A stretch of 64,000 nucleotides of DNA from Desulfarculus baarsii DSM 2075 (GTDB lineage: Bacteria > Desulfobacterota > Desulfarculia > Desulfarculales > Desulfarculaceae), in contig NC_014365.1 in NCBI RefSeq assembly GCF_000143965.1, positions 337,501 to 401,500 on the forward strand. The letters run 5' to 3'. Position numbers and translations under genes: made by a program. This document shows, one piece after another, positions 34,909-54,062 of this stretch. Position 1 is the first letter of the stretch; every line of letters begins with the position of its first letter. The notes below the pieces were generated by a model. It was not told the DNA's origin. It saw nothing but the letters and a program-made list of their open reading frames with translations, and did not search any database.

Positions 34909-35721
34909 ATAATATTTTGTAATTATTGGTTTTTGTTTGATGGCGGCGAGGTTGGCGGCAGGCAGGAAGGCGAAGGACAAGAGCAAGACAAGATTTAAGA
35001 TAAGAGTGAGAATGAAGAGAAGAAAGAGAAGAGAAGAGAGAGAGAAGAGAAGCAAAAGCCATTGCGGGGCGGGGAGGGGGCTCTTTACGCTAAACCGCCC
35101 CCTCGCCCGCCCCGCGCCCCACCCCACCCCCGCAAAGCAAGGTGGCCGACTTTTAGTTTCGTGTTTGTAGGGATGACGACCATAGAGCTGGTCTTTGGCA
35201 TAGCCGCGCCGCGAAGATTGTTGCCGGTTGCCAGTGACGTTACTGGAAGCTGACGCGCGGGGCGCGCGCCAGCTACGGCCAAGGTTGGTTGCGCCCGGAA
35301 AAAGAAAAGATTCAAGAAAGAAGAAAGAAGAACAATACGCTTCGCTGTCGCGGCTGCTTTGATAGCAGCCTCACACCGGGAGCTACGGACGGTAGGTGTT
35401 AAGCTGGCCTGGTCGACCCGCTCTGCCAGGCCGGGCGCCGGCCCACGGGAGCTACGGTCAAGGTTGGTTGCCCCCGGAAAAAGAAAAGAGTTAAGAGGGA
35501 AAGGTGCTTTTGTTTATGCCATGAAATTGCGAAGCAATTTCATGGCATGCAAAGCAACAAGGCTACCCGCGAAGCCGCCATGAAAATGAAAACGACGCGC
35601 ATCGATTGCGACGCAATCGATGCGGGGCTTTTCTTTTTGGAGGGGGGTGCGGGGGGAACCTTTTTCTTTTGGCACAAAAGAAAAAGGTTCCCCCCGCGTC
35701 TTCCCCGCCGCCGAGGGAGGA
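34909..35721. other. Non-coding region holding element A
   Basis: About 810 bases with no supportable gene. It begins with an AT-rich stretch (34904-34945), then a purine-rich tract (about 34965-35052), then the hairpin-rich element A described separately. Several short open frames here are shadows of repeat sequence. Confidence 0.7.
34965..35697 (+). repeat. Hairpin-rich non-coding element A (inverted copy at 53279-54062)
   Basis: This element recurs in inverted orientation as element B. Over 35051-35184 the two copies differ by only one inserted base and one substitution, and similarity continues with small indels to 35697. Its parts in order: purine tract; GC-rich block 35063-35133; hairpin 35231-35246 (CCAGT/ACTGG); hairpin 35248-35274 (AGCTG and CGCGCG arms); 7-base repeats 35314-35327; hairpin 35429-35443; 13-bp stem hairpin 35518-35546; 12-bp stem 35598-35624; 23-bp stem 35649-35671 with 35675-35697 (loop GCA). 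A module around AGCTACGG...AAGGTTGGTTGC occurs twice inside it (35271 and 35450). No transposase-like frame is present. Confidence 0.9.
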
Positions 35722-36420
35722 ATGGTGTTGAGCTATTATCCGGTATTGTTGGATGTGCGGGGGCGGGAGGTGTTGGTGATTGGCGGTGGTCCGGTGGCGG
35801 CGCGCAAGGTTGGTGGTTTGTTGGCGGCGGGGGCGGTGGTGCGGCTGGTTGCGCCGGAGCTGTGCGCGGCGGCGGTGGAGTTGGCGCTGGGGCCTGGGGT
35901 GGGATATCATGCTCGTGGGTTTGAGGCGAGCGATCTGGACGGTGTGGTGTTGGTTTTTTGTGCGTCTGGCGATAGCGCGGTGAATGCGCGGGCGGCGGAG
36001 TTGGCGCGGTCGCGGGGGATATTCGTGAACGTGGTTGACGCGCCGGAGGCTGGCGACATGATTGTGCCGGCGCATTTTCGGCGTGGCGAATTGTTGGTGG
36101 CGGTGGCCACGGGCGGGGCTTCGCCGGCGTTGTCGCGGCGGTTGCGGCAGCGTTTGGAGGTTGAGTTTGGCCCGGAGTGGGGTCCGTTGTTGCGACTTTT
36201 GGCGGCGGCGCGTCGGGCGGTGTTGGCTGGCGGCGGCGATGGGGCCGATCATCGCCGGGTGTTTTACGAGCTGGTGGATTCGCGGCTGGCGGAGTTTTTG
36301 CGGGCTGGCGACTGGGCCGGGGTGGACGGGCTTTTGCGGGAGGCGTTGGGCCTGGGGCTGGCGGATTTGGGCCTTGGGCCGGATGATTTGCAACCGCGAC
36401 CGGAGGATGGGCGGCCATGA
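35722..36420 (+). CDS. Precorrin-2 dehydrogenase / sirohydrochlorin ferrochelatase-like
   Basis: 232 residues matching the CysG N-terminal / Met8p family: YYPVLLDVRGREVLVIGGGPVAARKV (NAD-binding glycine loop GGGPVAARK) and ATGGASPALSRRLRQRLE. It oxidises precorrin-2 to sirohydrochlorin and may insert iron to make siroheme, feeding the heme/siroheme branch together with hemA downstream. GGGAGGA lies directly before the ATG; a GTG or TTG 1-2 codons later would have better spacing. Codons end unusually often in G or T (TTG, GTG, GCG), unlike most of the window. Confidence 0.9.
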   Translation: MVLSYYPVLLDVRGREVLVIGGGPVAARKVGGLLAAGAVVRLVAPELCAAAVELALGPGVGYHARGFEASDLDGVVLVFCASGDSAVNARAAELARSRGIFVNVVDAPEAGDMIVPAHFRRGELLVAVATGGASPALSRRLRQRLEVEFGPEWGPLLRLLAAARRAVLAGGGDGADHRRVFYELVDSRLAEFLRAGDWAGVDGLLREALGLGLADLGLGPDDLQPRPEDGRP

Positions 36421-37262
36421 ACGATTTTTTGCATTGGGCCACGGTGGCGGCGTATTTGGCTGGGACGGCGTTGTATTTGGCGTTCGTGGCGGCGCAGCGC
36501 GATGGTTTGCGTCGTGTGGGCGGGGCGGTTTTATGGCTGGGTCTGGGGTTGCACACGGCGGGGCTGGCCACGGCGTGGTGGGAGCTGGGGGTCGTGCCGG
36601 CGTTGAACCTGGGCCAGAGTCTGGCGCTGTTGTCGTGGGCGCTGATGGCGGCGACGTTGGTGGCCAATCTGCGTTTGGAGATCATGGTGATGGGTGCGTT
36701 GAGCGGGCCCATCTGCACGATGCTGTTGTTGGCGGGCAACTGGCTGCCCGCGCCGGTGGGCCAGCCGGGGCCGGTGTTCAAGAGCGTTTGGTTGGGGGTG
36801 CATGTTTTCGGCTTGCTGGGTGGCTATGGCCTGTTGTTGTTGGCCTGCCTGGCGGGGCTTTTGTACATGCGGCAGGAGCGGGCGCTACGCAGCAAGCGTT
36901 TGGGGCCGCTTTTCCAGCGTTTGCCGTCGCTTTCGCGGCTGGACCAGTTTGGCCATTGGACGATGGTTTCGGGTTTTACGTTGATGACGGTTGGCCTGGT
37001 GGGCGGGGCGATTTTCGCGCACGGGGTGATGGGTTCGTTTTTGCGGGGCACGCCCAAGGAGGTTTGCGCGCTGGTGACGTGGTTGGCCTACGCGGCGGTG
37101 ATTCACACGCGGCTGGTGCAGGGCTGGCGTGGCCGGCGGGGGGCCTGGCTGATGGTGGCGGCCTTTGGGCTAGTGCTGTTCACGTTCGTGGGGGCCGGCC
37201 TTTTATTCAATGATTATCACTCGTTCGAGTCTATCATCAAATTCACGGGGGCCGTTTCGTGA
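36417..37262 (+). CDS. CcsA/HemX-like membrane protein
   Basis: 281 residues, eight predicted membrane helices, of the cytochrome c assembly (PF01578) family. The histidine-containing WLGVHVFGLLGGYGLLLLAC and the C-terminal HTRLVQGWRGRRGAWLMVA are typical. Members near hemA (HemX) affect HemA level; others are CcsA-type cytochrome c assembly factors that handle heme. Position between precorrin-2 dehydrogenase and hemA favours the HemX-like role. Overlaps both neighbours by 4 bases. Strongly G/T-biased codons. Confidence 0.88.
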   Translation: MNDFLHWATVAAYLAGTALYLAFVAAQRDGLRRVGGAVLWLGLGLHTAGLATAWWELGVVPALNLGQSLALLSWALMAATLVANLRLEIMVMGALSGPICTMLLLAGNWLPAPVGQPGPVFKSVWLGVHVFGLLGGYGLLLLACLAGLLYMRQERALRSKRLGPLFQRLPSLSRLDQFGHWTMVSGFTLMTVGLVGGAIFAHGVMGSFLRGTPKEVCALVTWLAYAAVIHTRLVQGWRGRRGAWLMVAAFGLVLFTFVGAGLLFNDYHSFESIIKFTGAVS

Positions 37263-38536
37263 ACCTTTTGCTGGTTGGCGTCAATCACAAGACCGCGCCG
37301 GTGGAGCTGCGTGAGTGCCTGGCTCCGGCCGCCGATGGCGCGGAGCGGATTCTGCGGCGCGTGTTGGATATCGGCGAGGTGGACGAGGCCTTTTTGGTCT
37401 CGACCTGCAATCGCGTGGAGCTATTGACCGCCGGCGACGGGCCCCAGCCGGCCGAGGCGGTCAAGGCGGCCCTGACCGACGGCCGCCGGGCCGAGGCCCA
37501 AAGGCTGGAGCGGGCCTTTTACGTCCACCACGACGACGAGGCCGTGCGGCACTTGTTCCGCGTGGCCAGCAGCCTGGACTCGCTGGTGGTGGGCGAGCCG
37601 CAGATTTTGGGCCAGATCAAGGAATCGTTTCGCCTGGCCTGTGAAAGCGGGGCCTGTCGGGCGGTGCTCAACCGGCTTTTGCACACCACCTTTCGCGTGG
37701 CCAAGCGGGTGCGCAGCGAGACCAACATCGGCGGCGCGGCGGTGAGCGTGCCTTTCGCGGCGGTGCAGTTGGCCAAAAAGATCTTCGACGACCTGGCCGG
37801 CTTGCGGGCGCTGTTGGTGGGGGCGGGCGAGATGGCCGAGCTGGCGGCCGAGCACCTGCTGGCCGGCGGCGTGGCCGAGCTGACCGTGGCCAACCGCACC
37901 TACGAGCGGGCCCTGGCCCTGGCCGGCCGTTTGCGGGGCCGGGCCTGCGCCATGGACGAGCTGGCCCAGGCCCTGAGCCAGAGCGACATCGTCGTCACCT
38001 CCACCGGCGCGGTGGAGCCGGTGATCAGCCAGGCCATGGCCAAGGCGGCGCTGAAGAAACGCCGACATCGGCCGGTGTTTTTCATCGACATTGCCGTGCC
38101 GCGGGACGTGGACCCCAAGGTGGCGGAGCTTGAGGGCTGTTTTGTCTACGATATCGACGACCTGACCCAAGTCGTCGAGCAAAACCGCGCCAGCCGGCAA
38201 GAAGAGGCCGCCCAGGCCGAATTGATCGTGGCCGAGGAGGTGGGCAAGTTCCGCGAGTGGCTCGACGCCCTGGCCGTGGTGCCGACCATCGCCGCGCTCT
38301 CGGCCAAGGCCGAGGCCATCCGCCGGGCCGAGGTGGAGTTCACCCTGCGCGGCGGGGCGATCCAGGGCGAGGAGCAGGCCGAGGCCATCGATCGCCTGAC
38401 CCGCTCGCTGGTCAAGAAGCTCCTGCACGATCCGATCCTGTTTTTGAAAGAACAGGGCCACGCCTCGGCCGAGACCAGGCGCGATCAACTGGCCCTGGTC
38501 AAGCGGCTGTTCGGGCTGGGCCCGGAGGAGGGGTGA
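37259..38536 (+). CDS. hemA: Glutamyl-tRNA reductase
   Basis: 425 residues. Catalytic cysteine C50 in VSTCNRVELL, the substrate region GEPQILGQIKESF, the NADPH-binding domain (LRALLVGAGEMAELAAEHL) and the C-terminal dimerisation helices are in the expected order. It reduces glutamyl-tRNA to glutamate-1-semialdehyde, the first step of C5 heme synthesis. GTG start overlaps the preceding stop (GTGA). Composition returns to the genome norm within the first 200 bases of this gene. Confidence 0.96.
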   Translation: MNLLLVGVNHKTAPVELRECLAPAADGAERILRRVLDIGEVDEAFLVSTCNRVELLTAGDGPQPAEAVKAALTDGRRAEAQRLERAFYVHHDDEAVRHLFRVASSLDSLVVGEPQILGQIKESFRLACESGACRAVLNRLLHTTFRVAKRVRSETNIGGAAVSVPFAAVQLAKKIFDDLAGLRALLVGAGEMAELAAEHLLAGGVAELTVANRTYERALALAGRLRGRACAMDELAQALSQSDIVVTSTGAVEPVISQAMAKAALKKRRHRPVFFIDIAVPRDVDPKVAELEGCFVYDIDDLTQVVEQNRASRQEEAAQAELIVAEEVGKFREWLDALAVVPTIAALSAKAEAIRRAEVEFTLRGGAIQGEEQAEAIDRLTRSLVKKLLHDPILFLKEQGHASAETRRDQLALVKRLFGLGPEEG

Positions 38537-38548
38537 AAGCCGTGTTGT

Positions 38549-38779
38549 TCAGTGTTTGTCTGGCCTGTCGATGTTGATGATCTGGCGATAGACCGCGTAG
38601 CCGCCCGCGCCGATGCCCAGCAGCACCATCAGCGCCAGGACCAGTCCCTTGGCCCCCAGCCAGTCGTCGAGCCGGCGGCCGACAAAGAAAAACAACAGCA
38701 CCGAGCCGGCGAAGGTCATGGCCACCCGCATGGGAAAGGCCATGTAGATCAGCATGTCGCGGAGGTTGGAGCGTTTCAT
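38549..38779 (-). CDS. AtpZ/AtpI-family small membrane protein
   Basis: 76 residues with two membrane helices (AMTFAGSVLLFFFVGRRLDDWL and the VLALMVLLGIGAGGYAVYRQI segment) joined by the conserved RLDDWLG turn of AtpZ proteins, which assist F-type ATPase assembly and Mg transport. The ATG at 38779 opens the conserved part. The ATPase genes it normally accompanies are not in this window. Convergent with hemA. Confidence 0.75.
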   Translation of the reverse strand: MKRSNLRDMLIYMAFPMRVAMTFAGSVLLFFFVGRRLDDWLGAKGLVLALMVLLGIGAGGYAVYRQIINIDRPDKH

Positions 38780-38995
38780 GTTCGCCTCGGCGGGGCCTGC
38801 GCGGCCAGGCCCGGCCAAACGGTGTTTAGCGCCGCTGGGCCGGCCTTGAAGGCTTGAGCGAGGCCCGGATGTTGTGGTAACCTCTAGCCAATGAGCCCGG
38901 CCGGGCGTTTGGCTGGTTTGACCGCGCGCCGAGGCCGACCGTCAGGCAATCAATGGCCGCGCGCGCTTGCCGCGGCCCGGTTTTGGAGCAAGCCC

Positions 38996-39208
38996 ATGTC
39001 CGAAAAGAGAGTAGCTCGGGTCACCGACATCATCGCCGCCTCGCCCATCAGCTTCGACGACGCCATCAAGGTCGGCTTCGAGCGCGCCGCCCGCACCCTC
39101 AGGGACATCACCGGCATGAAGGTTCTGGAGCAACGGGTGGCCGTCGAGGACAACCAGATCCAGGAATACCGCGTGCGCCTGGAAGTTATTTTTCTCCTCG
39201 AATCCTAG
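38996..39208 (+). CDS. Dodecin-like protein
   Basis: 70 residues aligning with bacterial dodecins, small flavin-binding proteins that form 12-subunit shells: SPISFDDAIKVGFERAARTLRDI and the C-terminal strand IQEYRVRLEVIFLL. At the place of the flavin-stacking tryptophan (usually VxxAWVxEQ) this protein has methionine M41 (ITGMKVLEQ), so flavin binding may differ or be lost. GGAG lies 8 bases before the ATG. Monocistronic, in front of the PrmA-like gene. Confidence 0.85.
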   Translation: MSEKRVARVTDIIAASPISFDDAIKVGFERAARTLRDITGMKVLEQRVAVEDNQIQEYRVRLEVIFLLES

Positions 39209-39272
39209 GTTGTCCAGTCGATAATCCGCGCTGGGCGCGAGGGCGTCGCCCGCGAAGGCGAGCGCCGCGCGC

Positions 39273-40115
39273 TTGGCGCGCTTTTTTGTGGATGCGGCGG
39301 TGAGCAAGGCCCCCTACGATCAGCTTTTCATCTACGAAGTGGCCGGCGACGCCCGGCCGGCCATCGGCGCGCCGCCGGCCGGTTATCTGGGCCTGTGGCT
39401 GGAGGCCGACAGCAGCTTCGTCTTTTTCGACCGCCCGGCCGACGAGGCCATGGCGCGCATCCTGACCGCCGGGCCGGGGCTAAAGTTGCTGGACCGCCAC
39501 CAACTCAGCTACGAGCAATGGCAGGGCGGCCAGGCCCTCACGCCCATCGTGGTGGACGATCTGCACATCGTGCCGGCCTGGCTGGATTACGATCCGCCGG
39601 CCGGGGCCAGGCTGGTGCGCTTGGACCCGGGCCTGGTCTTTGGCTCGGGCCTGCACCCCACCACCGCCCATTGCCTGGAGCTGTTGCATCTGCGCCGCCA
39701 GCGCGGGCCGCTGGGCCGGGTGCTGGATCTGGGCTGCGGCACGGGCATCCTGGGCCTGGCCGCGGCGGCCTGGGGCGCCCAAGGCGTCACGGCGGTGGAC
39801 TTGAACCCCCTGTGCGTCGAGACCACCCAGGCCAACGCCCGCCGCAACGGCTTGGCCCTGACGGCCGTGGAGGGTCCGGCCCAGGATTTCATCCATCTGC
39901 CGGCCCAGGTGGTGCTGAGCAACCTGCACTGGCAGGTGCAAGAGCTGATTTTGGCCGACGAGGCCAAGCTGGCCCACGGCCCCGAGCTGATTTTATCGGG
40001 GATCATGCGCGGTTTCGCGGGGCCGCTGGAGGATCGCCTGGGCCGGCTGGGCTACCGCGTCTTGCAACGCCGCGAGGCCGATTTCACCTGGTTCACTTTC
40101 TGGGCGGCGCGCTGA
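39273..40115 (+). CDS. prmA: PrmA-like (ribosomal protein L11) methyltransferase
   Basis: About 280 residues. The order fits PrmA: an N-terminal alpha/beta domain, the linker RLDPGLVFGSGLHPTTAHCLELL, and a SAM-binding domain with motif I VLDLGCGTGILGLAAA and motif II TAVDLNPLCVETTQANA. The motif IV position reads SNLHWQV where PrmA has N(I/L)xxxP, so the target could differ from L11. No ATG is present at the right place: TTG at 39273 is used here, and GTG codons at 39288 and 39300 are alternatives. Stands alone. Confidence 0.75.
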   Translation: MARFFVDAAVSKAPYDQLFIYEVAGDARPAIGAPPAGYLGLWLEADSSFVFFDRPADEAMARILTAGPGLKLLDRHQLSYEQWQGGQALTPIVVDDLHIVPAWLDYDPPAGARLVRLDPGLVFGSGLHPTTAHCLELLHLRRQRGPLGRVLDLGCGTGILGLAAAAWGAQGVTAVDLNPLCVETTQANARRNGLALTAVEGPAQDFIHLPAQVVLSNLHWQVQELILADEAKLAHGPELILSGIMRGFAGPLEDRLGRLGYRVLQRREADFTWFTFWAAR

Positions 40116-40160
40116 GGGCGCTTTTTTTGCGCGGCGGTTCATTTTGCCCGGCCGGCGCTG

Positions 40161-40188
40161 TTGACAGGCCGGCCGGGCCGTGTTAATC
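40161..40188 (+). promoter_or_regulatory. Candidate promoter of the ilv operon
   Basis: TTGACA (40161-40166) followed after 16 bases by TTAATC (40183-40188; GTTAAT one base earlier is also possible). It lies about 40 bases before the ilv leader peptide start, where an attenuation-controlled promoter is expected. Confidence 0.5.
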
Positions 40189-40226
40189 CAGCCTGTAATC
40201 ATCACACGCACCCGGAGGCACCGGCG

Positions 40227-40373
40227 ATGGCGCGAAAACAGCCGTCCATGCAACAACCAGGGCGAGGTTCCAGGCAACCTCGACACGACAACTCCCGCCC
40301 GTCTTTCGGCTTCTCCGGCCAGCTATCCCCCCGCGTATCCGTATCTCGCATCGTAATTATTCTGCCCCTATAA
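40227..40373 (+). CDS. ilv operon leader peptide (attenuation)
   Basis: A 48-codon frame with GGAGG 8 bases before its ATG. Its last twelve codons read VSVSRIVIILPL and stop: eight are Val, Ile or Leu. They use codons that are rare in this window (GTA three times, ATT twice, CTA), which would sharpen ribosome stalling when branched-chain amino acids or their charged tRNAs are scarce. It lies 141 bases before ilvD. This is the classical layout of a branched-chain attenuator. The N-terminal part is basic and polar and has no other recognisable role. Confidence 0.8.
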   Translation: MARKQPSMQQPGRGSRQPRHDNSRPSFGFSGQLSPRVSVSRIVIILPL

Positions 40374-40444
40374 GGGGCCGAAACCCGTTTCCAACTCTCG
40401 TTTTTACAACCAGTTTCGCAAAAAACCAAACCAGCGCCCCTTTT
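40364..40444 (+). promoter_or_regulatory. ilv attenuator: competing hairpins
   Basis: GCCCCT (40364-40369) pairs with AGGGGC (40373-40378) across the leader stop codon. AAGGGGC (40372-40378) can instead pair with GCCCCTT (40436-40442), followed by more T residues. The two structures exclude each other. Which one terminates cannot be settled by eye; the T run after the second is only four bases long. Confidence 0.5.
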
Positions 40445-40514
40445 GGCCGCGCGCCCGTTTTTTGGCTCCATCCGTGGGCCGACGCGCGCCGGCGGGGCCG
40501 GAGGCCAAGGCGTC

Positions 40515-42200
40515 ATGCGTAGCGACAAAGTCAGACTAGGCGTTCACCGCGCGCCCCAGCGCTCGCTGTTGCGGGCCATGGGCCACGACGACGAAACCAT
40601 GGTCAAGCCGTTGATCGGCATAGCCAATTCGTACTCTCAGGTCGTGCCCGGCCACATCCACCTCAACGACCTGGCCCTGGCCGTGGCCGAGGGCGTGCGC
40701 CAGGCCGGCGGCCAGCCCATGGAGTTCAACACCATGGCCATCTGCGACGGCCTGGTCATGGGCCACGACGGCATGCACGCCTCGTTGCCCAGCCGCGAGA
40801 TCGTCGCCGACAGCGTCGAGCTGATGGCCCAGGCCCACTGTTTCGACGGCCTGGTGCTTTTGGCCAGTTGCGACAAGATCGTCCCCGGCATGCTCATGGC
40901 CGCCGCCCGCCTGGATATCCCGGTGGTGGCGGTCACCGGCGGACCCATGGCCGCCGGCCGCCTCGACGGCAAGCGGGTGGATTTGATCACCGTTTTCGAG
41001 GGCGTGGCCAAGGTGGCCAGCGGCCAGATGACGCCGGATGATCTGGCGCGCCTGGAGCGCTTGGCCTGCCCCGGCCCGGGCAGTTGCGCGGGGATGTTCA
41101 CGGCCAACACCATGGCCTGCATCACCGAGGCCCTGGGCCTGAGCCTGCCCGGCTGCGCCTGCGCCCTGGCCGCCGGCCCGGAAAAGCGGCGCATCGCCCG
41201 CGACAGCGGCCTCAAGATCGTCGAGCTGGCGTCCAGGGATCTGCGGCCCTCGGCCATCCTGACCCCGGCCGCCTTTGAAAACGCCTGCCGGGTGGACCTG
41301 GCCCTGGGCGGCAGCACCAACACCGCCCTGCATCTGCCGGCCATCGCCCACGCCGCCGGCGTGAGCTTCGGCCTGGCCGACTTCGACCGCCTCGCGCGCC
41401 AGACGCCCCACCTGTGCTCGATGAGCCCCGGTGGGCCCATGCACATGGAAAACCTGGGCGCGGCCGGCGGCGTGGGCGGCGTGCTGCGGGCGCTGGCCCC
41501 GTTGATCGACGCCTCCTGCCTGGCCGTGGGCGGGAGCATCGCCGACTACATGACCGAGCGCCAGCCCGATCTGGTCGTCGACGGCCAGTTGGTGATCCAC
41601 CCCCTTAGCGCGCCGGTGCACGACCAGGGCGGCATCGCCGTGCTGCGCGGCAACCTGGCCCCCGATGGCGCGGTGGTCAAGCAGACCGCCGTGGCCCCGG
41701 AGATGATGCGCCACCAAGGCCCGGCCCAGGTCTTTGACAGCGAGGACGCCGCCGTGGCGGCCTACGACCAGGGCCGCATCCGGCCCGGCGGCGTGCTGGT
41801 GGTGCGCTACGAGGGGCCGGCCGGCGGGCCGGGCATGCGCGAGATGCTGGCCCTGACCGCCCTGATCTCGGGCGGGCCGCTGAGCGGCAAGGTGGCCCTG
41901 ATCACCGACGGCCGCTTCAGCGGCGGCAGCCGGGGCGCGGCCATCGGCCACGTATCGCCCGAGGCGGCCCAGGGCGGGTTGATCGGCCTGGTGGCCGACG
42001 GCGACATGATCGAGATAGACATCCCCGGCCGTCGCCTGGAGCTTGCGGTTGCGGCCGAGGAGTTGGAGCGCCGTCGCCAGGCCTGGCGGCGGCCCGCGGC
42101 CAAATTCGCCCGCGGCCCCCTGGCCCGCTACGCCGCCCTGGTGGGCAGCGCGGCCGGCGGCGCGGTGTTGAGGGACGATTTCTCCCAAGGGAGCAGATGA
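40515..42200 (+). CDS. ilvD: Dihydroxy-acid dehydratase
   Basis: 561 residues. Fe-S ligands are visible in LLASCDKIVPG and CPGPGSCAGMFTANTM, with the C-terminal TDGRFSGGSRG motif. It dehydrates dihydroxy-isovalerate and dihydroxy-methylvalerate to the keto acids of valine and isoleucine. GGAGG lies upstream of the ATG at 40515; the longer frame starts inside the attenuator. First structural gene of the ilv operon, followed one base later by ilvB. Confidence 0.97.
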   Translation: MRSDKVRLGVHRAPQRSLLRAMGHDDETMVKPLIGIANSYSQVVPGHIHLNDLALAVAEGVRQAGGQPMEFNTMAICDGLVMGHDGMHASLPSREIVADSVELMAQAHCFDGLVLLASCDKIVPGMLMAAARLDIPVVAVTGGPMAAGRLDGKRVDLITVFEGVAKVASGQMTPDDLARLERLACPGPGSCAGMFTANTMACITEALGLSLPGCACALAAGPEKRRIARDSGLKIVELASRDLRPSAILTPAAFENACRVDLALGGSTNTALHLPAIAHAAGVSFGLADFDRLARQTPHLCSMSPGGPMHMENLGAAGGVGGVLRALAPLIDASCLAVGGSIADYMTERQPDLVVDGQLVIHPLSAPVHDQGGIAVLRGNLAPDGAVVKQTAVAPEMMRHQGPAQVFDSEDAAVAAYDQGRIRPGGVLVVRYEGPAGGPGMREMLALTALISGGPLSGKVALITDGRFSGGSRGAAIGHVSPEAAQGGLIGLVADGDMIEIDIPGRRLELAVAAEELERRRQAWRRPAAKFARGPLARYAALVGSAAGGAVLRDDFSQGSR

Positions 42201-42201
42201 G

Positions 42202-44525: not shown

Positions 44526-44534
44526 GGAGATAAA

Positions 44535-45524: not shown

Positions 45525-45542
45525 GCCTGAAAAACGTCGGCC

Positions 45543-45566
45543 GGGGCCTCGCCGCGAGGCCCCTTT
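45543..45566 (+). terminator. Terminator after ilvC
   Basis: GGGGCCTCG (45543-45551), loop CCG, CGAGGCCCC (45555-45563), then TTT. A perfect 9-bp GC stem that should end or reduce ilv transcription before leuC. A second GC-rich inverted repeat (around 45633-45666) lies in the leuC leader. Confidence 0.65.
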
Positions 45567-45703
45567 GGCCCGCCCCCGCAAAATGCTTGAACCACGGGCC
45601 GGGGCGGGCTATTTTGCCTTTGTGACCAAAAAAACGCGCGCGCCTCCGCTGGCGGAAGCGCGCGAGGGGCCGTTTCGTCGCGGCCGTCGGGAGTTTTTCG
45701 CCC

Positions 45704-47098
45704 ATGCCCAGCCTCATCGACAAGATTTGGGACGCCCACGTGGTCCTGCGCGAGCCGGGACGGCCGGCGCTGCTCTACGTCGACCGTCACCTGGTTCACG
45801 AGGTCACCTCGCCCCAGGCCTTCCAGGGCCTGCGCCTGGCCGGTCGCCGGGTGCGCCGGCCCGACCTGACCTTCGCCGTCTGCGACCACGTCGTGCCCAC
45901 CGACAGCCGCCAGCGGCCCCTGGCCGACCAGGTCGCCGAGACCCAGCTGGCCGCCCTGGAGCAAAACGCCGCCCAGTTTGGCGTGACCTTTTTTGGCATG
46001 GAAGACCCGCGCCAGGGCGTCATTCACGTGGTCATGGCCGAGCAAGGGGTGATCCTGCCGGGCGCCACGGTCTTTTGCGGCGACAGCCACACCGCCACCC
46101 ACGGCGCTTTCGGCGCGCTGGCCTTTGGCGTGGGCACCAGCGAGGTCGAGCATATCCTGGCCACCCAGACCCTGGCCCAGGCCAAGCCCAAGAGCATGGC
46201 CGTGCGTTTTGTCGGCCAATTGCCGGCCGGCCTTTCGGCCAAGGACATGGCGCTGGCCTTCATCGGCCAGGTGGGCGCGGCCGGCGGCACGGGCCATCTG
46301 GTCGAATACATGGGCCCGGCCGTGGAGGCCCTGTCCATGGAAGGCCGCATGACGCTGTGCAACATGTCGGTGGAGTGCGGGGCCAAGGCCGGCCTGGTGG
46401 CCCCCGATCAGACGACTTTTGACTATCTGCAAGGTCGGCCCTTCGCGCCCAAGGGCGCCGATTGGGACGAGGCCGTGGCCTGTTGGCGCGCGCTCAAATC
46501 CGACGCCGACGCGGTCTTTGACGCCGAGGTCGTCGTCGACCTCAGCGGCCTGGAGCCCCAGGTGACCTGGGGCATCAACCCCGGCCAGGCCACCGGCCTG
46601 AGCGGCCGCGTGCCCGATCCGGCGGCCATGGCCGACCCCGAGCAGCAACGGGCCGCCATCAAGGCCCTGGCCTACATGGGCCTGGAGCCGGGGCAAAAAA
46701 TCGCCGACCTGGCCGTGGATTACGTGTTCATCGGCTCGTGCACCAACGGCCGCATCCAAGACCTGCGCGCGGCGGCGGCGGTGGTCAAGGGCCGCAAGGT
46801 CGCCCCGGGCGTGACGGCCCTGGTCGTGCCCGGCTCGGGCCTGGTGCGGGCCCAGGCCGAGGCCGAGGGCCTGGACCGGGTGTTCATCGAGGCCGGCTTC
46901 CAGTGGCGGCTGGCCGGCTGTTCGATGTGCCTGGCCATGAACCCCGACGTGCTGCCCAGCGGCAAACGCTGCGCCAGCACCAGCAACCGCAATTTCGAGG
47001 ATAGGCAGGGCCGGGGCGGGCGCACCCATTTGTGTTCGCCGGCCACGGCCGCGGCCTCGGCCATCGCCGGCAGGCTGGCCGACGCCAGGACGCTCTAG
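45704..47098 (+). CDS. leuC: 3-Isopropylmalate dehydratase large subunit
   Basis: 464 residues of the aconitase superfamily, bacterial LeuC length. SDxHxxTxGAFGxLxFGVGTSE-type motif near residue 125-145 ([20 protein letters not shown]) and cluster cysteines in IGSCTNGRI and [10 protein letters not shown]. It isomerises 2-isopropylmalate to 3-isopropylmalate with LeuD. leuA is not in this window, so leucine synthesis also depends on a distant locus. A GGGAG lies 11 bases before the ATG. Confidence 0.95.
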
Positions 47099-47102
47099 GC
47101 GG

Positions 47103-47133
47103 GCGGGCCGGGGGGATCGGCTCCCCGGCCCGC
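47103..47133 (+). other. Strong 11-bp GC hairpin after leuC
   Basis: GCGGGCCGGGG (47103-47113) and CCCCGGCCCGC (47123-47133) form a perfect stem with a 9-base loop. No T run follows, so it may stabilise the 3' end of leuC mRNA or slow transcription rather than terminate it. Confidence 0.5.
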
Positions 47134-47156
47134 GCCGTGACGGCGCGAGTGAATTC

Positions 47157-47432
47157 ATGACCCACGCGCAACTGATCGACCTGGCGATGACGCGCATCGG
47201 CCAAGCCCTGACCGCGGCCCTGGCGCCGGGCGCGAGCGCCGTGCTCAGCCATGTCGCGGCCGACTTTTTCGGCCCGCCGGACGGGCTGGAGCGGCCAGAG
47301 GTGACGGTGGACGTGCAAAAGGCCGGCCGCACCATGGCCTTTGCCGGGGCCTTTGTCTGGCGGGATGGCCAGCGACTGGCCAGGGTCAGCGCCGTCTACA
47401 GGGTTCGACCGGCCGCCGAGCCGACAACCTGA
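47157..47432 (+). CDS. Small protein resembling half a hotdog thioesterase
   Basis: 91 residues. The C-terminal part ([35 protein letters not shown], quoted for pattern; residues 46-83) has the strand pattern of the second half of PaaI-like hotdog proteins. The N-terminal helix is alanine-rich. No catalytic residue is recognisable. It lies between leuC and leuD, 44 bases before leuD, presumably in the same transcript, where an extra gene is unusual. Function unknown. Confidence 0.55.
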
Positions 47433-47476
47433 GCCGGACGCCCCAGCGGGCGGCCGGCCCCCAAGGATGCGACCAT

Positions 47477-48100
47477 ATGGAAAAATTCGAGACTTTCACC
47501 GGCGTGGTGGCCCCCCTCGACGTGGCCAACGTCGACACCGACCAGATCATCCCCAAGCAGTTCCTCAAGCTGGTCGACCGGGCCGGCTTTGGGCAATACG
47601 CCTTTTACAACTGGCGCTTCAAGCCCGACGGCCAGCCCGACGAGGGCTTCGTGCTCAACCAGCCGCGCTATCAGCGGGCGCGCATCCTGCTGGCCCGTGA
47701 CAACTTTGGCTGCGGCTCCTCGCGCGAGCACGCGCCCTGGGCCCTGGCCCAGTACGGCCAGGGGCTCGGGGTGGTCATCGCCCCCAGCTTCGCCGACATC
47801 TTCACCAACAACGCCTTTAATAACGGCATGCTGCTCATCAGCCTGCCGGCGGCGACGATCGACGAGCTCTTCGGGCGCGTGCGGGCCCACGAGGGCTACG
47901 CCCTGACCGTGGACCTGGCCGCCCAGCGCCTGAGCGGGCCCGATGGTTTCGCCTGCTCGTTCGAGATCGACCCCTTTCGCAAAGAGCGCCTGCTGGAGGG
48001 CCTGGACCACATCGGCCTGACCTTGCGCCATGAGGCGGCCATCGCCGCCTATGAGCAAGGCCGCCAAAAACCCTGGCAGGCCGCCGTGGCCAAATCTTGA
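47477..48100 (+). CDS. leuD: 3-Isopropylmalate dehydratase small subunit
   Basis: 207 residues, full-length LeuD of the type paired with long Leu[17 protein letters not shown] at the start, then [16 protein letters not shown] (swivel-domain substrate loop) and [13 protein letters not shown]. Joins LeuC in the leucine pathway. Its stop overlaps a possible TTG start of the next gene. Confidence 0.96.
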
Positions 48101-48126
48101 ACCAAAAAACGAAAGAACGCAGCCAA

Positions 48127-49119
48127 ATGACCGAAAATATTTATGACATTGCCGTGATCGGCGGCGACGGCATCGGCCCCGAGGTGGTCGAGGCCGAGAT
48201 CGCCGTGCTCGAGGCCACCGGCCTGGCCTGGAATTTCAGCAGCTACGAGGCCGGCGACGACTGCCTGGCCAGCCGCGGCCAGGCCCTGCCCCAGGCCACC
48301 CTGGACGGCGCGTTGGCCGCCCAGGCCGTGATCTTCGGCGCGGCCGGCGTCAGCGCCGCCGACGTGATTCTGCGCCTGCGCGCCGAGTTGGGCACCTTTG
48401 TCAATCTGCGGCCGTCGGTGGCCTACAAGGGCGTCAACTGCCTGCACCCCCAGACCGACATGATGATCGTGCGCGAAAACACCGAATGCCTCTACGCCGG
48501 CATCGAGGCCCAACTCACCCCGGAGGTCGTCACCGCCACCAGGGTCATCACCAGCCAGGCCAGCACGCGCATCGTCAACTACGCCCTGGAGTGGGCCCGC
48601 CAGGCCGGCGGCAAGAAAGTCACCGCCGTGCACAAGGCCAACGTCCTGCGCAAGACCGACGGCCATTTTCTGCAATGCTGCCGCGCCGCCGCCCGGCAAT
48701 TCCCCGACGTGCCCTACGAGGAGGCCCTGGTCGACTCGGTGGCCATGCGCATGGCCATGCGGCCCGAGGAGTTCCAGGTCATCGTCACCACCAATCTTTT
48801 TGGCGACATCCTCTCCGACCTGGCCGCCGGGCTCATCGGTGGCCTGGGCATGTGCCCCAGCGCCAACCTGGGCCAGGCCCACGCCCTGTTCGAGCCCGTC
48901 CACGGCACCGCCCCGGATATCGCCGGCCAGGGCAAGGCCAACCCCAGTGCGGCCATCCTCTGCGGGGCCATGCTGCTGCGCCACCTGGGCCAGGAGCAAT
49001 GGGCCGCCCGCGTCGAAAAGGCCGTGGCCGACTGCGTGGCCGACGGTCAGGCCACCAGCGACCTGGGCGGCAAGCTGCGCACCATGGAAATGGCCCGCGC
49101 CGTCATCGATCGGCTCTAG
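48127..49119 (+). CDS. leuB: 3-Isopropylmalate/isocitrate dehydrogenase-family enzyme, probable LeuB
   Basis: 330 residues. IGGDGIGPEVV at the N-terminus, substrate-binding RENTECLYAG, catalytic lysine in AVHKANVLRKTDG and NAD-binding EPVHGTAPDIAGQGKANPSA. The family includes isopropylmalate, homoisocitrate and isocitrate dehydrogenases. The last motif (GTAPDI rather than GSAPDI) leans toward the isocitrate/homoisocitrate side, but position right after leuCD supports LeuB. The ATG at 48127 opens the conserved part; a TTG at 48097 overlapping the leuD stop is the coupled alternative. Confidence 0.88.
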   Translation: MTENIYDIAVIGGDGIGPEVVEAEIAVLEATGLAWNFSSYEAGDDCLASRGQALPQATLDGALAAQAVIFGAAGVSAADVILRLRAELGTFVNLRPSVAYKGVNCLHPQTDMMIVRENTECLYAGIEAQLTPEVVTATRVITSQASTRIVNYALEWARQAGGKKVTAVHKANVLRKTDGHFLQCCRAAARQFPDVPYEEALVDSVAMRMAMRPEEFQVIVTTNLFGDILSDLAAGLIGGLGMCPSANLGQAHALFEPVHGTAPDIAGQGKANPSAAILCGAMLLRHLGQEQWAARVEKAVADCVADGQATSDLGGKLRTMEMARAVIDRL

Positions 49120-49132
49120 TAAGGACAGCGTA

Positions 49133-49915
49133 ATGAAAAACTTCCCGCGCCTTTGCGCCCTCGCCACCCTGATCCTGCTGCTGGCCGCCGCCGGCGCGCG
49201 GGCCCAGGAGCAGACGCTCTATCAATACTCCACCCTCGACGCCCTGCTCGAAGGCGTCTACGACGGCCAACTGACCATGGCCGAGCTGCTGGGCCACGGC
49301 GATCTGGGCCTGGGCACCTTCAACGGCCTGGACGGCGAGATGGTCGTCATCGACGGCAAGGCCTACCAGGCGCCCTTCAGCGGCAAGGTCGAGCTGATGC
49401 CCGCCTCGGCCCGCACGCCCTTTGCCCAGGTCACCGCCTTCGCCCCCGAAAAGGCCTTCGAGGTCAAGGGCCCCATGGACATGGCCGGCCTCCAGGCCGC
49501 CATCGACAAGGCCATCGAAAGCCCCAACCTTTTTTACGCCATCCGCGTCAGCGGCGGCTTCAAGCACGTCACCGCCCGCAGCGTGCCCCGCCAGACCAGG
49601 CCCTATCCCCGCCTGGTCGAGGTGGTCAAAAAGCAGGCCGTGTTCCAGTTCGACGACGTCCAGGGCGACATCGTCGGCTTCCTCTCGCCGGCCTACGTCA
49701 AGGGCCTGGGCGCGCCGGGCTATCACCTGCACTTTCTGCGCGCCGACCGCCAGGCCGGCGGCCACCTGCTGGCCGTCGAAATCGAAAACGCCACCGTGCA
49801 AATCGACGCCATCCCGGGCCTGCGCGTTCAACTGCCCACCAGCGGCGATTTCCTGAACGTGGGCCTGGGCGACGACAAGTCCGCCGACCTGCACGAGGTC
49901 GAAACGAAAAAATAA
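49133..49915 (+). CDS. budA: Secreted alpha-acetolactate decarboxylase
   Basis: 260 residues. A clear Sec signal peptide (hydrophobic LCALATLILLLAAAGARA, cleavage near A24) precedes a complete acetolactate decarboxylase domain. The zinc-binding motif GYHLHFLRADRQAGGHLL supplies the three histidines. The enzyme converts acetolactate to acetoin, diverting the valine intermediate made by IlvBN. TAAGGA precedes the ATG, 14 bases after the leuB stop, so it is probably co-transcribed. Export places it away from the cytoplasmic synthase, which is odd for a simple overflow role. Confidence 0.92.
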   Translation: MKNFPRLCALATLILLLAAAGARAQEQTLYQYSTLDALLEGVYDGQLTMAELLGHGDLGLGTFNGLDGEMVVIDGKAYQAPFSGKVELMPASARTPFAQVTAFAPEKAFEVKGPMDMAGLQAAIDKAIESPNLFYAIRVSGGFKHVTARSVPRQTRPYPRLVEVVKKQAVFQFDDVQGDIVGFLSPAYVKGLGAPGYHLHFLRADRQAGGHLLAVEIENATVQIDAIPGLRVQLPTSGDFLNVGLGDDKSADLHEVETKK

Positions 49916-49953
49916 GGCGTGGCCGCCCGGCCCGCCGCCAAAGGAGAAACACC

Positions 49954-51843
49954 GTGACGCGCGGCTTGTTGACCGAATTCGACCTGCATCTGTTCAACGA
50001 GGGCAGCCACAGCCGCCTGCACGCCAAGATGGGCGCGCATCCGGTGGCCGACGGTTGCCACTTCGCGGTGTGGGCGCCCAACGCGCGGTCGGTCCACGTC
50101 ATCGGCGATTTCAACGACTGGGACAAGTCGGCCGTGGCCATGGAACTGCGGGGCGACTCCGGGATTTGGGAGGCCTTTGTCAAGGACGCGCGGGTGGGTC
50201 AGCGCTACAAGTATCACATCCGCTCGCGCTTCAAGGGCTACAAGGTCGACAAGGCCGACCCCTTCGGCTTTTATCACGAACAATCGCCAGCGACGGGCAG
50301 CGTGATCTGGCCGCGGGCCTACGAGTGGGGCGACGCCGCCTGGCTCAAGCGCAGGGCCAAGGCCAACGCCCACCGCGAGCCGATGAGCATCTACGAACTG
50401 CACCTGGGCTCGTGGCGCTTGAAGCCCGAGGAGGGCAATCGCTGGCTGACCTACCGCGAGCTGGCCCCGCTGCTGGTCGACTATTGCCGCGAAATGGCCT
50501 ACACCCACGTGGAATTCATGCCGGTGATGGAGCACCCCTTCGGCGGCTCGTGGGGCTATCAGATCACCGGCTATTTCGCGCCGACCAGCCGCTATGGCTC
50601 GCCGCAGGATTTCATGTATCTGGTCGACACGCTGCACCAGGCCGGCATCGGCGTGGTCCTGGACTGGGCCCCCAGCCACTTTCCGGCCGACGAACACGGC
50701 CTGAAGTTTTTCGACGGCTCGCATCTGTTCGAACACGCCGACCCGCGCCAAGGACATCACCCCGATTGGGACAGCGCCATCTTCAATTATGGCCGCAACG
50801 AGGTGCGCTCGTTTTTGCTCTCCAGCGCCTTTTTCTGGCTGGAGTTCATGCACGCCGACGCCCTGAGGGTGGACGCGGTGGCCTCGATGATCCACCTGGA
50901 CTATTCGCGCCAGCCCGGCCAGTGGATCCCCAACCAATACGGCGGCAACGAAAATCTGGAGGCCATATCGTTTTTGCGCCGGCTCAACGAAGACGCCTAT
51001 CGCGAGATCCCCGGCGTGCAGATCATCGCCGAGGAGTCAACCGCCTGGCCCATGGTCAGCCGACCGGTCTATCTGGGCGGGCTGGGCTTTGGCTTCAAGT
51101 GGGACATGGGCTGGATGAACGACGTGCTCAAATACATGGCCCTGGACCCGGTGCATCGCCGCTATCACCAAAACGACATAACTTTTCGCAGCATGTATCA
51201 ATACGCCGAGAACTTCGTGCTGCCGCTGAGTCACGACGAGGTCGTCCACGAAAAATCGACCCTGATCGGCAAAATGCCCGGCGACGAATGGCAAAAGTTC
51301 GCCAATCTGCGCCTGCTGCACGGCTGCATGTTCGCCCAGCCCGGCAAGAAGCTGTTGTTCATGGGCGGCGAATTGGCCCAGTGGCGCGAGTGGGACTACG
51401 AAACCAGCCTGGACTGGCATTTGCTGCAATACCCCCCGCACCAGGGCGTGCAACGCTGGGTGGCCGACCTCAATCGCTTCTACGCCGCCGAGCCGGCCAT
51501 GCACCGGCTCGACTGCGAGCCCGGCGGCTTTCAGTGGGTCGACTGCGCCGACGCCGACCAGAGCGTCCTCACGTTCCTGCGCCTGGACGGCCAAGGCCGG
51601 CAGGTGCTGGCCGTGTTCAACTTCACGCCCGTGCCGCGCCACGGCTACAACATCGGCGTGGACGTCGGCGGCCCCTGGGTCGAGGCGCTCAACAGCGACG
51701 CCAGCCAATACGGCGGTTCGGGCCTGGTCAACGGCCCGCTGGTCGAGGCCTGGCCCGGCCAGGTCCACGGCCGGCCATATCACTTGAGCCTGACCCTTTC
51801 GCCGCTGGCGCTGATGCTCCTGCGCCCGGCCGGCCAACAATAG
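49954..51843 (+). CDS. glgB: 1,4-alpha-glucan branching enzyme
   Basis: 629 residues: CBM48-like N-terminal domain (about 30-115, FAVWAPNARSVHVIGDFNDWD), GH13 barrel with catalytic nucleophile D307 in ALRVDAVASMI, acid E360 in IIAEES and LSHDEVVH, and a C-terminal beta domain. It makes alpha-1,6 branches in glycogen. GTG start with AAAGGAG upstream. No other glycogen gene is adjacent. It follows the acetolactate decarboxylase by 38 bases and is convergent with asnS. Confidence 0.96.
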   Translation: MTRGLLTEFDLHLFNEGSHSRLHAKMGAHPVADGCHFAVWAPNARSVHVIGDFNDWDKSAVAMELRGDSGIWEAFVKDARVGQRYKYHIRSRFKGYKVDKADPFGFYHEQSPATGSVIWPRAYEWGDAAWLKRRAKANAHREPMSIYELHLGSWRLKPEEGNRWLTYRELAPLLVDYCREMAYTHVEFMPVMEHPFGGSWGYQITGYFAPTSRYGSPQDFMYLVDTLHQAGIGVVLDWAPSHFPADEHGLKFFDGSHLFEHADPRQGHHPDWDSAIFNYGRNEVRSFLLSSAFFWLEFMHADALRVDAVASMIHLDYSRQPGQWIPNQYGGNENLEAISFLRRLNEDAYREIPGVQIIAEESTAWPMVSRPVYLGGLGFGFKWDMGWMNDVLKYMALDPVHRRYHQNDITFRSMYQYAENFVLPLSHDEVVHEKSTLIGKMPGDEWQKFANLRLLHGCMFAQPGKKLLFMGGELAQWREWDYETSLDWHLLQYPPHQGVQRWVADLNRFYAAEPAMHRLDCEPGGFQWVDCADADQSVLTFLRLDGQGRQVLAVFNFTPVPRHGYNIGVDVGGPWVEALNSDASQYGGSGLVNGPLVEAWPGQVHGRPYHLSLTLSPLALMLLRPAGQQ

Positions 51844-51852
51844 GCCCCGGCG

Positions 51853-53217
51853 TCAAAAACCCAAATGCCGCGGCGTGCGCGGGTAGGCGATGACATCGCG
51901 GATGTTGCCCGCGCCGGTGATCATCAGCAAAAAGCGCTCGAAACCCATGCCGAAACCGGCGTGGGGCGCCGAGCCGAAACGCCGCGTGTCCAGATACCAC
52001 CAATAATCCTCGGCGCTCAGGCCCAACTCACCCATGCGCGCCTCCAGCACGCCTAGGCGCTCCTCGCGCTGGCTGCCGCCGATCAGCTCGCCCACCCGGG
52101 GAACCAGCAGGTCCATGGCCGCCACCGTGCGGCCGTCATCGTTTTGCCGCATGTAAAAGGGCTTGATTTGCTTGGGATAATCGAAAACGATCACCGGCCG
52201 CCGGAAATATTCCTCGCACAAAAAGCGTTCGTGCTCGGTCTGCAAATCCGCGCCCCACTGCGGCGCGTACTCCCATTGCCGGCCAGCTTTTGCCAGAATA
52301 TCAATGGCCTGGCCATAGCTCACCCGCTCGAAAGGCCCCTCGACCATGGCCGCCAGACCGGCCAGCAGGCCCGGTTGCACAAAGCGCTCGAACAAGGCCA
52401 GATCCTCGCCGCAATCGGCCAAAACACGGCGCGTCAAATCCTTGGTGAAATCCTCGGCCAAGGCCATGTCGTCGGCCAGATCGGCAAAGGCCATCTCCGG
52501 CTCGATCATCCAGAACTCGGCCGCGTGACGCGGCGTGTTGGAGTTTTCCGCCCGGAAAGTCGGCCCAAAGGTGTACACGTCGCCCAAAGCCAGGGCGAAA
52601 GGCTCGGCCTCCAACTGCCCCGAAACCGTCAACCCAGCCTGCCGACCAAAAAAATCCGCCGCCAAATCAACCTCGCCCGGCGGCAAGGTCGTCACGCGGA
52701 ACATCTCGCCGGCGCCCTCGCAGTCGCTGCCGGTGATGATCGGCGTGTGCACCCAACAAAACCCGCGCTGGCCAAAAAACTCGTGCACCGCCAGCGCCGC
52801 CCGTGCACGAATACGAAACATCGCCCCATATTTGTTGGTGCGCGGACGCAAATGGGCGATCGTGCGCAAAAACTCGTCGCCATGCCGCTTCTTCTGCAAG
52901 GGATAGCTCTCCGGGTCGGCCACGCCCAGCACCCGCAGGCCCTCGGCATGCAGCTCCCAAGCCTGGCCCTTGGCCGGCGAGGCCTGGTGACGGCCCACAA
53001 CCTCCAGGGCCGCGCCCGTGCTCACCTCGCCCAAGCCCCCCCACGCCGCCGAATCCTCCGCCACCAGCACCTGCAAGTTGCCCAGGCACGAGCCGTCGTT
53101 AATCTCCAGAAAAACCAGGCCCTTGGATTCGCGCCTGGTGCGCGCCCAACCCCGGATCAACACCAAACCCAGCGCCTCCGTCGCCGCCAACGCCCGCCTT
53201 ACCCGCGTCCTGTCCAT
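51853..53217 (-). CDS. asnS: Asparaginyl-tRNA synthetase
   Basis: 454 residues of class IIb: N-terminal OB-fold anticodon domain (about 15-105; IRGWARTRRESKGLVFLEIND), then motif 2 (FRAENSNTPRHAAEFWMIEPEM) and motif 3 (GFGMGFERFLLMITG). The AsnRS-specific FRAENSNTPRHAAEF distinguishes it from AspRS. It charges tRNA-Asn directly. Its codons near the start are G/T-biased on the coding strand. Element B lies 62 bases upstream, in the same orientation as the gene. Confidence 0.96.
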   Translation of the reverse strand: MDRTRVRRALAATEALGLVLIRGWARTRRESKGLVFLEINDGSCLGNLQVLVAEDSAAWGGLGEVSTGAALEVVGRHQASPAKGQAWELHAEGLRVLGVADPESYPLQKKRHGDEFLRTIAHLRPRTNKYGAMFRIRARAALAVHEFFGQRGFCWVHTPIITGSDCEGAGEMFRVTTLPPGEVDLAADFFGRQAGLTVSGQLEAEPFALALGDVYTFGPTFRAENSNTPRHAAEFWMIEPEMAFADLADDMALAEDFTKDLTRRVLADCGEDLALFERFVQPGLLAGLAAMVEGPFERVSYGQAIDILAKAGRQWEYAPQWGADLQTEHERFLCEEYFRRPVIVFDYPKQIKPFYMRQNDDGRTVAAMDLLVPRVGELIGGSQREERLGVLEARMGELGLSAEDYWWYLDTRRFGSAPHAGFGMGFERFLLMITGAGNIRDVIAYPRTPRHLGF

Positions 53218-53278
53218 GCCAAAACCCCCTTTCTCTCCAGACGCCTATTGTAACCCAGGAAAACCTAAGAAAAACCTC

Positions 53279-54062
53279 GCGGGGGGAACCTTTTTCTTTT
53301 GTGCCAAAAGAAAAAGGTTCCCCCCGCACCCCCCTCCAAAAAGAAAAGCACATGGTTCGATTGCTCCGCAATCGAACCATGCACATTGTCTTTTCGCAGC
53401 GCGGCCGCGTGGGTAATCTTGTTGCTCTGCATTCCATGAAATTGCTTCGCAATTTCATGGCATAAACAAAAGCACCTTTCCCTCTTAACTCTTTTCTTTT
53501 TCCGGGGGCAACCAACCTTGGCCGTAGCTCCCGGTGGGCCGGCGCCCGGCCTGGCAGAGCGGGGCCGGTGCCCGGCCAGGCAAGGCGGGTCGAGTAGGCC
53601 GCAATGACACCTACCCTCCGTAGCTCCCGGTGTGAGGCCGCTATCAAAGCAGCCGCGACGACGAAGCTTATTGTTCTTCTTTCTTCTTTCTTCTTTCTTC
53701 TTTCTTCTTTCTTAAATCTTCTCTTTTTCCGGGCACAACCAACCTTGGCCGTAGCTGGCGCGCGCCCCGCGCGTCAGCTTCCAGTAACGCCACCGGCAAC
53801 CGGCAACAATCTTCGCGGCGCGGCAATGCTCAGGACCGATCCTATGGTCGTCATACCTACAAACACGAAACTAAAAGTCGGCCACCTTGCTTTGCGGGGG
53901 TGGGGTGGGGCGCGGGGCGGGCGAGGGGGCGGTTTAGCGTAAAGAGCCCCCTCCCCGCCCCGCATGGCTTTTGCTTATTCTTTTTCTTTTTTTTCTTCTT
54001 CTTCTTCTTGATTTTTCTTCTTGATTCTTATTTTTCTTCTATCTTCTTTCTTCCGCCTTCGC
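53279..54062 (-). repeat. Hairpin-rich non-coding element B (inverted copy of element A)
   Basis: Reverse complement of element A with the same order of parts, read on the minus strand: purine tract (to about 53971), GC-rich block, hairpin 53753-53779, 7-base repeats 53676-53710, two copies of the GGCCGG hairpin (53563-53577 and 53537-53551; A has one), hairpin 53434-53460, a variable hairpin 53351-53381 and the 23-bp stem 53279-53327. The long terminal stem sequence is identical in both copies apart from loop orientation. The 14-bp variable stem differs in sequence from A's but is still fully paired. Confidence 0.9.
53676..53710. repeat. Heptanucleotide tandem repeat (5 units) in element B
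   Basis: Five perfect units of CTTCTTT plus a partial unit. Element A carries the same repeat (AAGAAAG on its strand) with only two full units at 35314-35327, so the tract has changed length since the copies separated. Confidence 0.9.

Follow-up and report, generated by a model that had tools for sequence, protein, structure and literature searches.

Mosaic intergenic repeats in Desulfarculus baarsii, probable markers of gene ends, and their family-wide palindromic core

Within the 64,000-nucleotide stretch of the Desulfarculus baarsii DSM 2075 chromosome analysed here (the window, bases 337501-401500 of a genome that forms one contig of 3,655,731 bases), two long structured elements, A (window positions 34965-35697, plus strand) and B (53279-54062, minus strand), lie in inverted orientation, their inner ends facing each other across a 17.6-kb block of genes. 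An initial annotation, which had described this arrangement correctly, likened the pair to a composite transposon and suggested a multi-copy chromosomal element, a structured RNA, or both. What, then, are A and B? The most probable answer is that both are copies of an intergenic mosaic repeat peculiar to this lineage and similar to repetitive extragenic palindromes (REPs) and the bacterial interspersed mosaic elements (BIMEs) built from them, which lies at gene ends and would act there as 3'-end punctuation. The element is undescribed so far as the literature searched goes: open-licence papers on repeats of Desulfarculus or Desulfarculaceae, on intergenic palindromes of Desulfovibrio and on palindromes or REPs at stop codons yielded no description of it.

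A and B agree at 638 of 732 alignment columns (87.2% identity), and over 35051-35184 they differ by one substitution and one gap column, so that the shared, ordered modules reported in the initial annotation are indeed present. They are also far from alone. A search of the genome with A returned 81 matching pieces, a number that counts A itself and the reverse-strand matches of its palindromes, and comparison of the own-genome loci that were fetched places whole, partial or doubled copies at 19 sites, in either orientation. With a covariance model of the core module described below, two places that have the core alone are found in addition, near 190 and 2889 kb. The identity of A to the genome's other three long matches is 82-89%. 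The remaining copies stand by themselves, in both orientations. The element is thus multi-copy, as had been proposed, and a one-off segmental duplication, the alternative then offered, is rejected by the genome-wide copy number.

The modules of the large mosaic come in the order purine tract, G-rich hairpin, spacer, 73-nt core (single or in tandem), terminator-like hairpin and 49-nt palindrome. In A, all on the plus strand, an A/G-rich purine tract (34965-35050), read directly and resembling tracts that precede other copies, is followed by the G-rich hairpin M1 (35064-35115), recognised from sequence and fold and found at 12 places in the fetched loci, and by the spacer modules M2 and M2b (35116-35345), which occur at eight places each and only in type I copies; A is included in these counts. 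The core unit (35373-35445; genome 372873-372945) is matched at 93 bits by the covariance model R1. It is followed by the hairpin M4a (35518-35546; 13-bp stem, six places including A), by the terminator-like hairpin (35598-35638), in which a 12-bp stem and 4 nt lead to TTTTCTTTTT at 35629-35638, and by the terminal palindrome (35649-35697), identified from its fold and from the genome-wide match of the terminal 61 bp. In B, on the minus strand, a purine tract read in the sequence (53975-54062) precedes M1 (53897-53972; from genome 391397 on; 98.7% identity with the M1 of A), a core unit (53561-53633; genome 391061-391133, 88.6 bits with R1), a terminator-like hairpin whose 17-bp stem is followed by TTTTCTTTTT (53338-53384) and a terminal palindrome (53279-53327) with the same 49 nt as in A, placed by alignment and by the terminal 61-bp match. 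A series of hairpins ending in a 23-bp stem had been noted in the initial annotation, and folding bears this out: for 35040-35700, z is -10.2 on the plus and -7.5 on the minus strand relative to 20 dinucleotide shuffles per strand, and the last hairpin of A has a 23-bp stem and a 3-nt loop, with identical letters at the end of B.

Type I copies, A and B among them, carry the purine tract, M1, M2/M2b, the core, M4a, the terminator-like hairpin and the palindrome, several of them without the last modules. Type II copies have the same purine tract and a variant M1, a different spacer and at least one core. The order is kept even in a diverged 166-bp copy (genome 174739-174904) that consists of purine tract, G-rich hairpin, core and terminal palindrome, and modules of the mosaic also occur separately from one another. 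Long open reading frames overlap copies of the element, but indels distinguish the copies, and the repeat is taken to be non-coding. As the purine tract at the left end differs among copies, the boundary of the element cannot be fixed for the recognition of target-site duplications. The terminal 61 bp are present at 11 sites, including A and B and leaving out one further 24-base match (E 0.004), and are identical throughout at seven of them; set against the lower identity of the whole element, this would fit recent spread, gene conversion or strong constraint. The loop of the 49-nt palindrome has one orientation at most sites and is inverted at 545 and 551 kb, where the arms are unchanged.

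At all nine exact T-tract sites in the fetched loci, chosen by the T-run pattern itself, a stem of 14-17 pairs (G-T pairs and up to two mismatches allowed) stands ahead of TTTTCTTTTT, giving at each the form of an intrinsic terminator, a GC-bearing stem followed by a T-rich run. The stems are of several different sequences, each of them self-complementary. While the succession of stem and TTTTCTTTTT is that of intrinsic (Rho-independent) terminators, here the hairpin is embedded in a 0.7-kb multi-module repeat. The terminal palindrome faces the stop of a predicted gene at 7 of the 11 sites, at distances of 7-47 positions compiled by hand, and at 983 kb, read by eye, it probably faces a stop. 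By eye, a GC-framed hairpin on the same plan as this palindrome, often after a stop codon and sometimes preceded by a purine tract, is seen in loci of relatives (L046, L055, L062, L050 and L051).

Beyond D. baarsii, it is the core that recurs. With the DNA of A (35040-35697) as query, matches were found in 9 of 60 genomes, the own genome counted, and those listed from relatives are confined to the terminal hairpin part of A or to a stretch of 28-37 bases within the core. At E values up to 0.1, the covariance model of the core matches 14 of the 60 genomes including D. baarsii, all within the 20 of the same family (48 matches in D. baarsii and 43, 41 and 54 in the relatives G006, G009 and G011), and none of the 40 outside it. 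A second model, at E up to 0.01, matches 6 of 297 genomes of the phylum, again all of this family, and among the genomes listed at least two further family members have no match; in both searches the filters were stricter once more than 40 genomes were included. R1 itself derives from 21 of 35 distinct own-genome units and two units of relatives, with a diverged own pattern match at 3335410 excluded. The exact core pattern is absent from a collection of 84,980 species, from which the D. baarsii genome may itself be missing, and the pattern of the inner palindrome occurs there in one unrelated contig and in no viral contig. Judged from its sequence, then, the 73-nt core is a family-wide repeat, newly recognised here. 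In three loci of another genus, g3 (L070, L084 and L155), the core runs on by eye into a further extended stretch of repeat-like sequence (GAGCGAGGGCCGGAGGCGTAGC... or similar); other genera may build mosaics of their own on the core.

The position of the core relative to genes was assessed in relatives, in loci around the best-scoring R1 matches, with genes predicted by an in-house GC-frame heuristic and not a published gene finder. These loci hold 100 strict cores, 91 of which have a hairpin with a GCN loop, in 45 distinct stem-loop sequences; the position counts omit the nine cores that lack a qualifying hairpin. Only 4 of the 91 hairpins lie inside a predicted gene. Past the 3' end of the core the neighbour is the stop of a convergent gene in 62 cases and a start in 17, with none in the remaining 12 (stop against start, P = 4e-7). 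The hairpin ends between -2 and +1 nt from the convergent gene's stop codon in 19 cases, where a uniform distribution would give 0.6, although orthologous pairs among them (L069/L081, L136/L143 and L140/L149) reduce these to at most 16 independent places. Such docking is seen at none of the 17 starts and none of 40 upstream stops. Across 56 loci, a stop is touched by 2 of 47 other intergenic hairpins as against 18 of 60 core hairpins (P = 0.0008); control hairpins had at least six pairs and lay between genes, those overlapping a lone CGACCC motif being skipped. Enrichment of TAG at the docked stops is not claimed, as 16 of the 19 are TAG but so are 53 of 95 in the same loci.

Together with the copies in D. 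baarsii, these data are best read as a repeat without REP tag or transposase that has been joined to a terminator in the D. baarsii lineage, and it resembles known intergenic repeats more closely than a transposon. REPs are palindromes of 20-40 bp, most of which bear GTAG or CGTC tags and which lie mainly downstream of genes (PMC3733652). The core shares their high copy number and intergenic location downstream of genes, and as in GTAG and CGTC REPs its palindromes are short and small-looped, often grouped, and placed mostly in gaps between convergent or unidirectional genes. Unlike those REPs, it has next to no tag at the palindrome foot (within 8 nt on either side of the 91 relatives' hairpins GTAG occurs three times, GGAG twice and CGTC once), and the 73-nt unit is longer, with conserved letters outside the hairpin. 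In E. coli, 446 of 4,072 predicted REPs lie no more than 15 nt from a stop codon, and REPs so placed are cited as stalling ribosomes (PMC12306157). The core hairpin is likewise a palindrome near a stop codon, but one that in 19 of 91 instances touches the stop itself, and its sequence is apparently unrelated. The repeat sits at gene ends, more often than not toward a stop codon. There the terminator-like hairpin would end transcripts of the element strand, and stable structure at 3' ends would come from the palindromes. Copies may have spread and been homogenised by duplication, recombination or gene conversion, perhaps with the help of some enzyme acting in trans. CGTC REPs too have no known transposase, and the family bears on the question, raised for them, of the origin and spread of palindromic repeats that have neither tag nor transposase (PMC3733652).

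Several observations count against punctuation as the whole account. The 3' ends of A, of B and, by eye, of the copy at 1126 kb face gene starts: the ATG of a siroheme-synthase-type gene at 35722 lies 25 positions past the end of the palindrome of A, and a class II tRNA-synthetase gene starts 62 positions past that of B. A promoter scan of both elements detected no sigma-70-type promoter, so that with a gap of 25 positions to the ATG pure punctuation would leave the siroheme-synthase operon without an obvious promoter. A general terminator scan detects the stems of A and B, but its totals do not exceed those of shuffles (2 against 2.0; 3 against 2.6). The large mosaic as a whole is matched in none of the 60 relatives, none of which is of the same genus, so its spread cannot be watched, and 6 of the 20 family genomes have no core match, the core being either inessential there or missed.

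A more specific reading attaches to the core. In the relatives G006 and G011, shared gene stretches are about 90-98% identical in most pairs found. After the gene of locus L104, matches to G011 break 14 bases inside the core, and similarity returns only where the facing core is about to end. By eye, the orthologues of this gene in G006, G011 and G009 agree in their C-termini and share the TGA; what comes after it is a core in G006, a hairpin remnant and other DNA in G011 and another palindrome in G009. The gene of L111 ends in TAG in G011 and TAA in G006, with different hairpin modules after each. These two examples, both hand-picked, would fit turnover at the stop codon, insertion as such not being seen. 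The occurrence of core, bare hairpin remnant or unrelated palindrome at one orthologous stop in three relatives raises the idea that the core represents a new class of gene-end palindrome, placed exactly at stop codons, maintained as DNA with near-strict Watson-Crick pairing and no bias toward wobble, and moved or exchanged by an enzyme other than a REP-associated tyrosine transposase (RAYT). We regard this as possible but doubtful. The family-wide, stop-docked core is nevertheless the part most worth following: several genomes carry it in dozens of copies, its hairpin varies but is nearly always complementary, and its address, the stop codon, is sharp, so that comparison of close strains could reveal insertion directly. 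The large mosaics, for their part, offer an example of such a repeat combined with terminator-like hairpins.

Also at one orthologous stop (L166 1141-1161 in G011, L168 903-950 in G009), G009 has a different palindrome (TACCAATTGGCGTTCAAAGG...) immediately after the TGA, and in L047 a palindrome resembling it lies near the hairpin. The same stop-codon address may be used by a second family of palindromes. In L104 (1100-1700, G006), a HigBA-like toxin-antitoxin gene pair lies by eye between inverted cores, and G011 differs there.

The pairing of the core hairpin bears both on this reading and on an unlikely but more conventional one, that the 73-nt core functions as a structured RNA, serving as a 3'-UTR (untranslated region) motif of the gene toward whose stop codon it points, the large element being a chain of such RNAs. 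In a model-fitted alignment of 119 matches (nine from D. baarsii; 110 distinct), pairing in the 3' hairpin reaches 97.6%, and both sides change at all six pairs; in the outer CGGG/CCCG helix it is 98.2%, with scarcely any variation, and the inner helices are weaker (70.7-82.9%). The covariation score of the hairpin, 0.346, was reached in none of 500 shuffles, and versions slid along the alignment reached at most 0.064; the number of double-change pairs was reached in 2 of 500. Fitting to the model favours the structure, and related rows inflate the covariation counts. This covarying hairpin, flanked by the conserved letters GGGAGC and CGACCCG, would suit a structured RNA, as would the strong folding and the location at the 3' ends of genes. 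In RNA helices, G-U pairs are usually tolerated. Among 594 pairs from 99 relatives' hairpins, however, 565 are Watson-Crick, 18 are of other kinds, and G-T pairs (5) are about as rare as A-C mismatches (6), so that wobble is not clearly favoured on either strand. The 38 D. baarsii core hairpins have 226 Watson-Crick and two G-T pairs and none of A-C or other kinds; in both sets the loop was placed by pairing alone and only hairpins with at least four of six Watson-Crick pairs were counted. That G-T is as rare as A-C in the relatives leans, weakly, toward constraint on a palindrome at the DNA level. Moreover, 17 of the 91 core hairpins face a start, and Rfam gives no match at gathering score in the elements (Rfam 15; a permissive search of A gave 54 matches, all sub-threshold) or in 18 relatives' loci, where the sole match up to E 0.5, to SAM-IV in L077, is below gathering score and away from the core. 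The structured RNA suggested as a possibility in the initial annotation is thus borne out as regards strong and conserved structure, but the pairing counts do not show a constraint at the RNA level, and a palindrome held at the DNA level may account for them. A pseudoknot between the letters ahead of the hairpin and its loop was dropped by eye, since those letters vary (GCC, GGC, GGG) and the loop stays GCN.

Somewhat less likely again is that the element belongs to a family of mobile palindromes of REP type which has lost its Y1 (RAYT) transposase in D. baarsii, with the large mosaics as its BIMEs. REP-like features are the short stems, the 3-nt loops, the position at gene ends and the clustering in tandem, and as in RAYT-associated REPs and BIMEs the palindromes are clustered in a mosaic with pairing preserved by complementary changes, although the core arrays listed here run head to tail and do not alternate (PMC2817692). 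Matches to Y1_Tnp (PF01797) occur in 13 of 21 relative genomes searched, and the core-bearing ones among them include G002, G006, G009 and G011, several of these matches being fragmentary. The domain has, however, no match in the D. baarsii genome despite its 48 core matches, in a search whose positive controls were found in 5 of 14 named genomes; the strongest match is in G005, where the core has none, and across 91 hairpins only six tag-like tetranucleotides lie no more than 8 nt from the stem. A match to a known REP-type family that has mobility genes, which the initial annotation had named as grounds for refutation, is therefore not what was found, for all that the element behaves like a REP.

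It is very improbable that A and B represent the two ends of a composite transposon, or a passive inverted duplication by which the 17.6-kb block was moved, for apart from their inverted orientation and facing inner ends they have no transposase inside either element and enclose genes of ordinary metabolism (both read by eye), solitary copies occur at many other sites in both orientations, and two other copies owe their transposase to an insertion bordered by direct repeats of its own; the earlier likeness to a composite transposon is rejected. The observation that there is no transposase frame accordingly holds for A and B and fails for those two copies, each of which contains an inserted transposase gene that reads alike in both and, in the one scanned, has integrase-core and helix-turn-helix domains. 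We take it to be part of an IS481-like element. By eye, one copy has it within M1 and the other within its purine tract, with 7-bp direct repeats of CAAAACC and GAAAAAG, respectively; as the two insertions occupy different points and have repeats of their own, its transposase is rejected as the mover of the repeat, in which it is a passenger.

Two further observations concern duplicated genes. Genome stretches 549007-551358 and 2345673-2348018 (L035 and L040) form an aligned block of 2.36 kb that is 95.8% identical and holds a formate-dehydrogenase-like gene split, by eye, by an in-frame TGA, possibly a selenocysteine codon; the similarity stops at the terminal palindrome on one side, and its other end is the edge of the fetched stretch. 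At 536005-544286 (L034), four copies of a gene for an exported-looking protein of about 300 residues are, by eye, interleaved with element modules in both orientations, and the elements there may have mediated the duplications.

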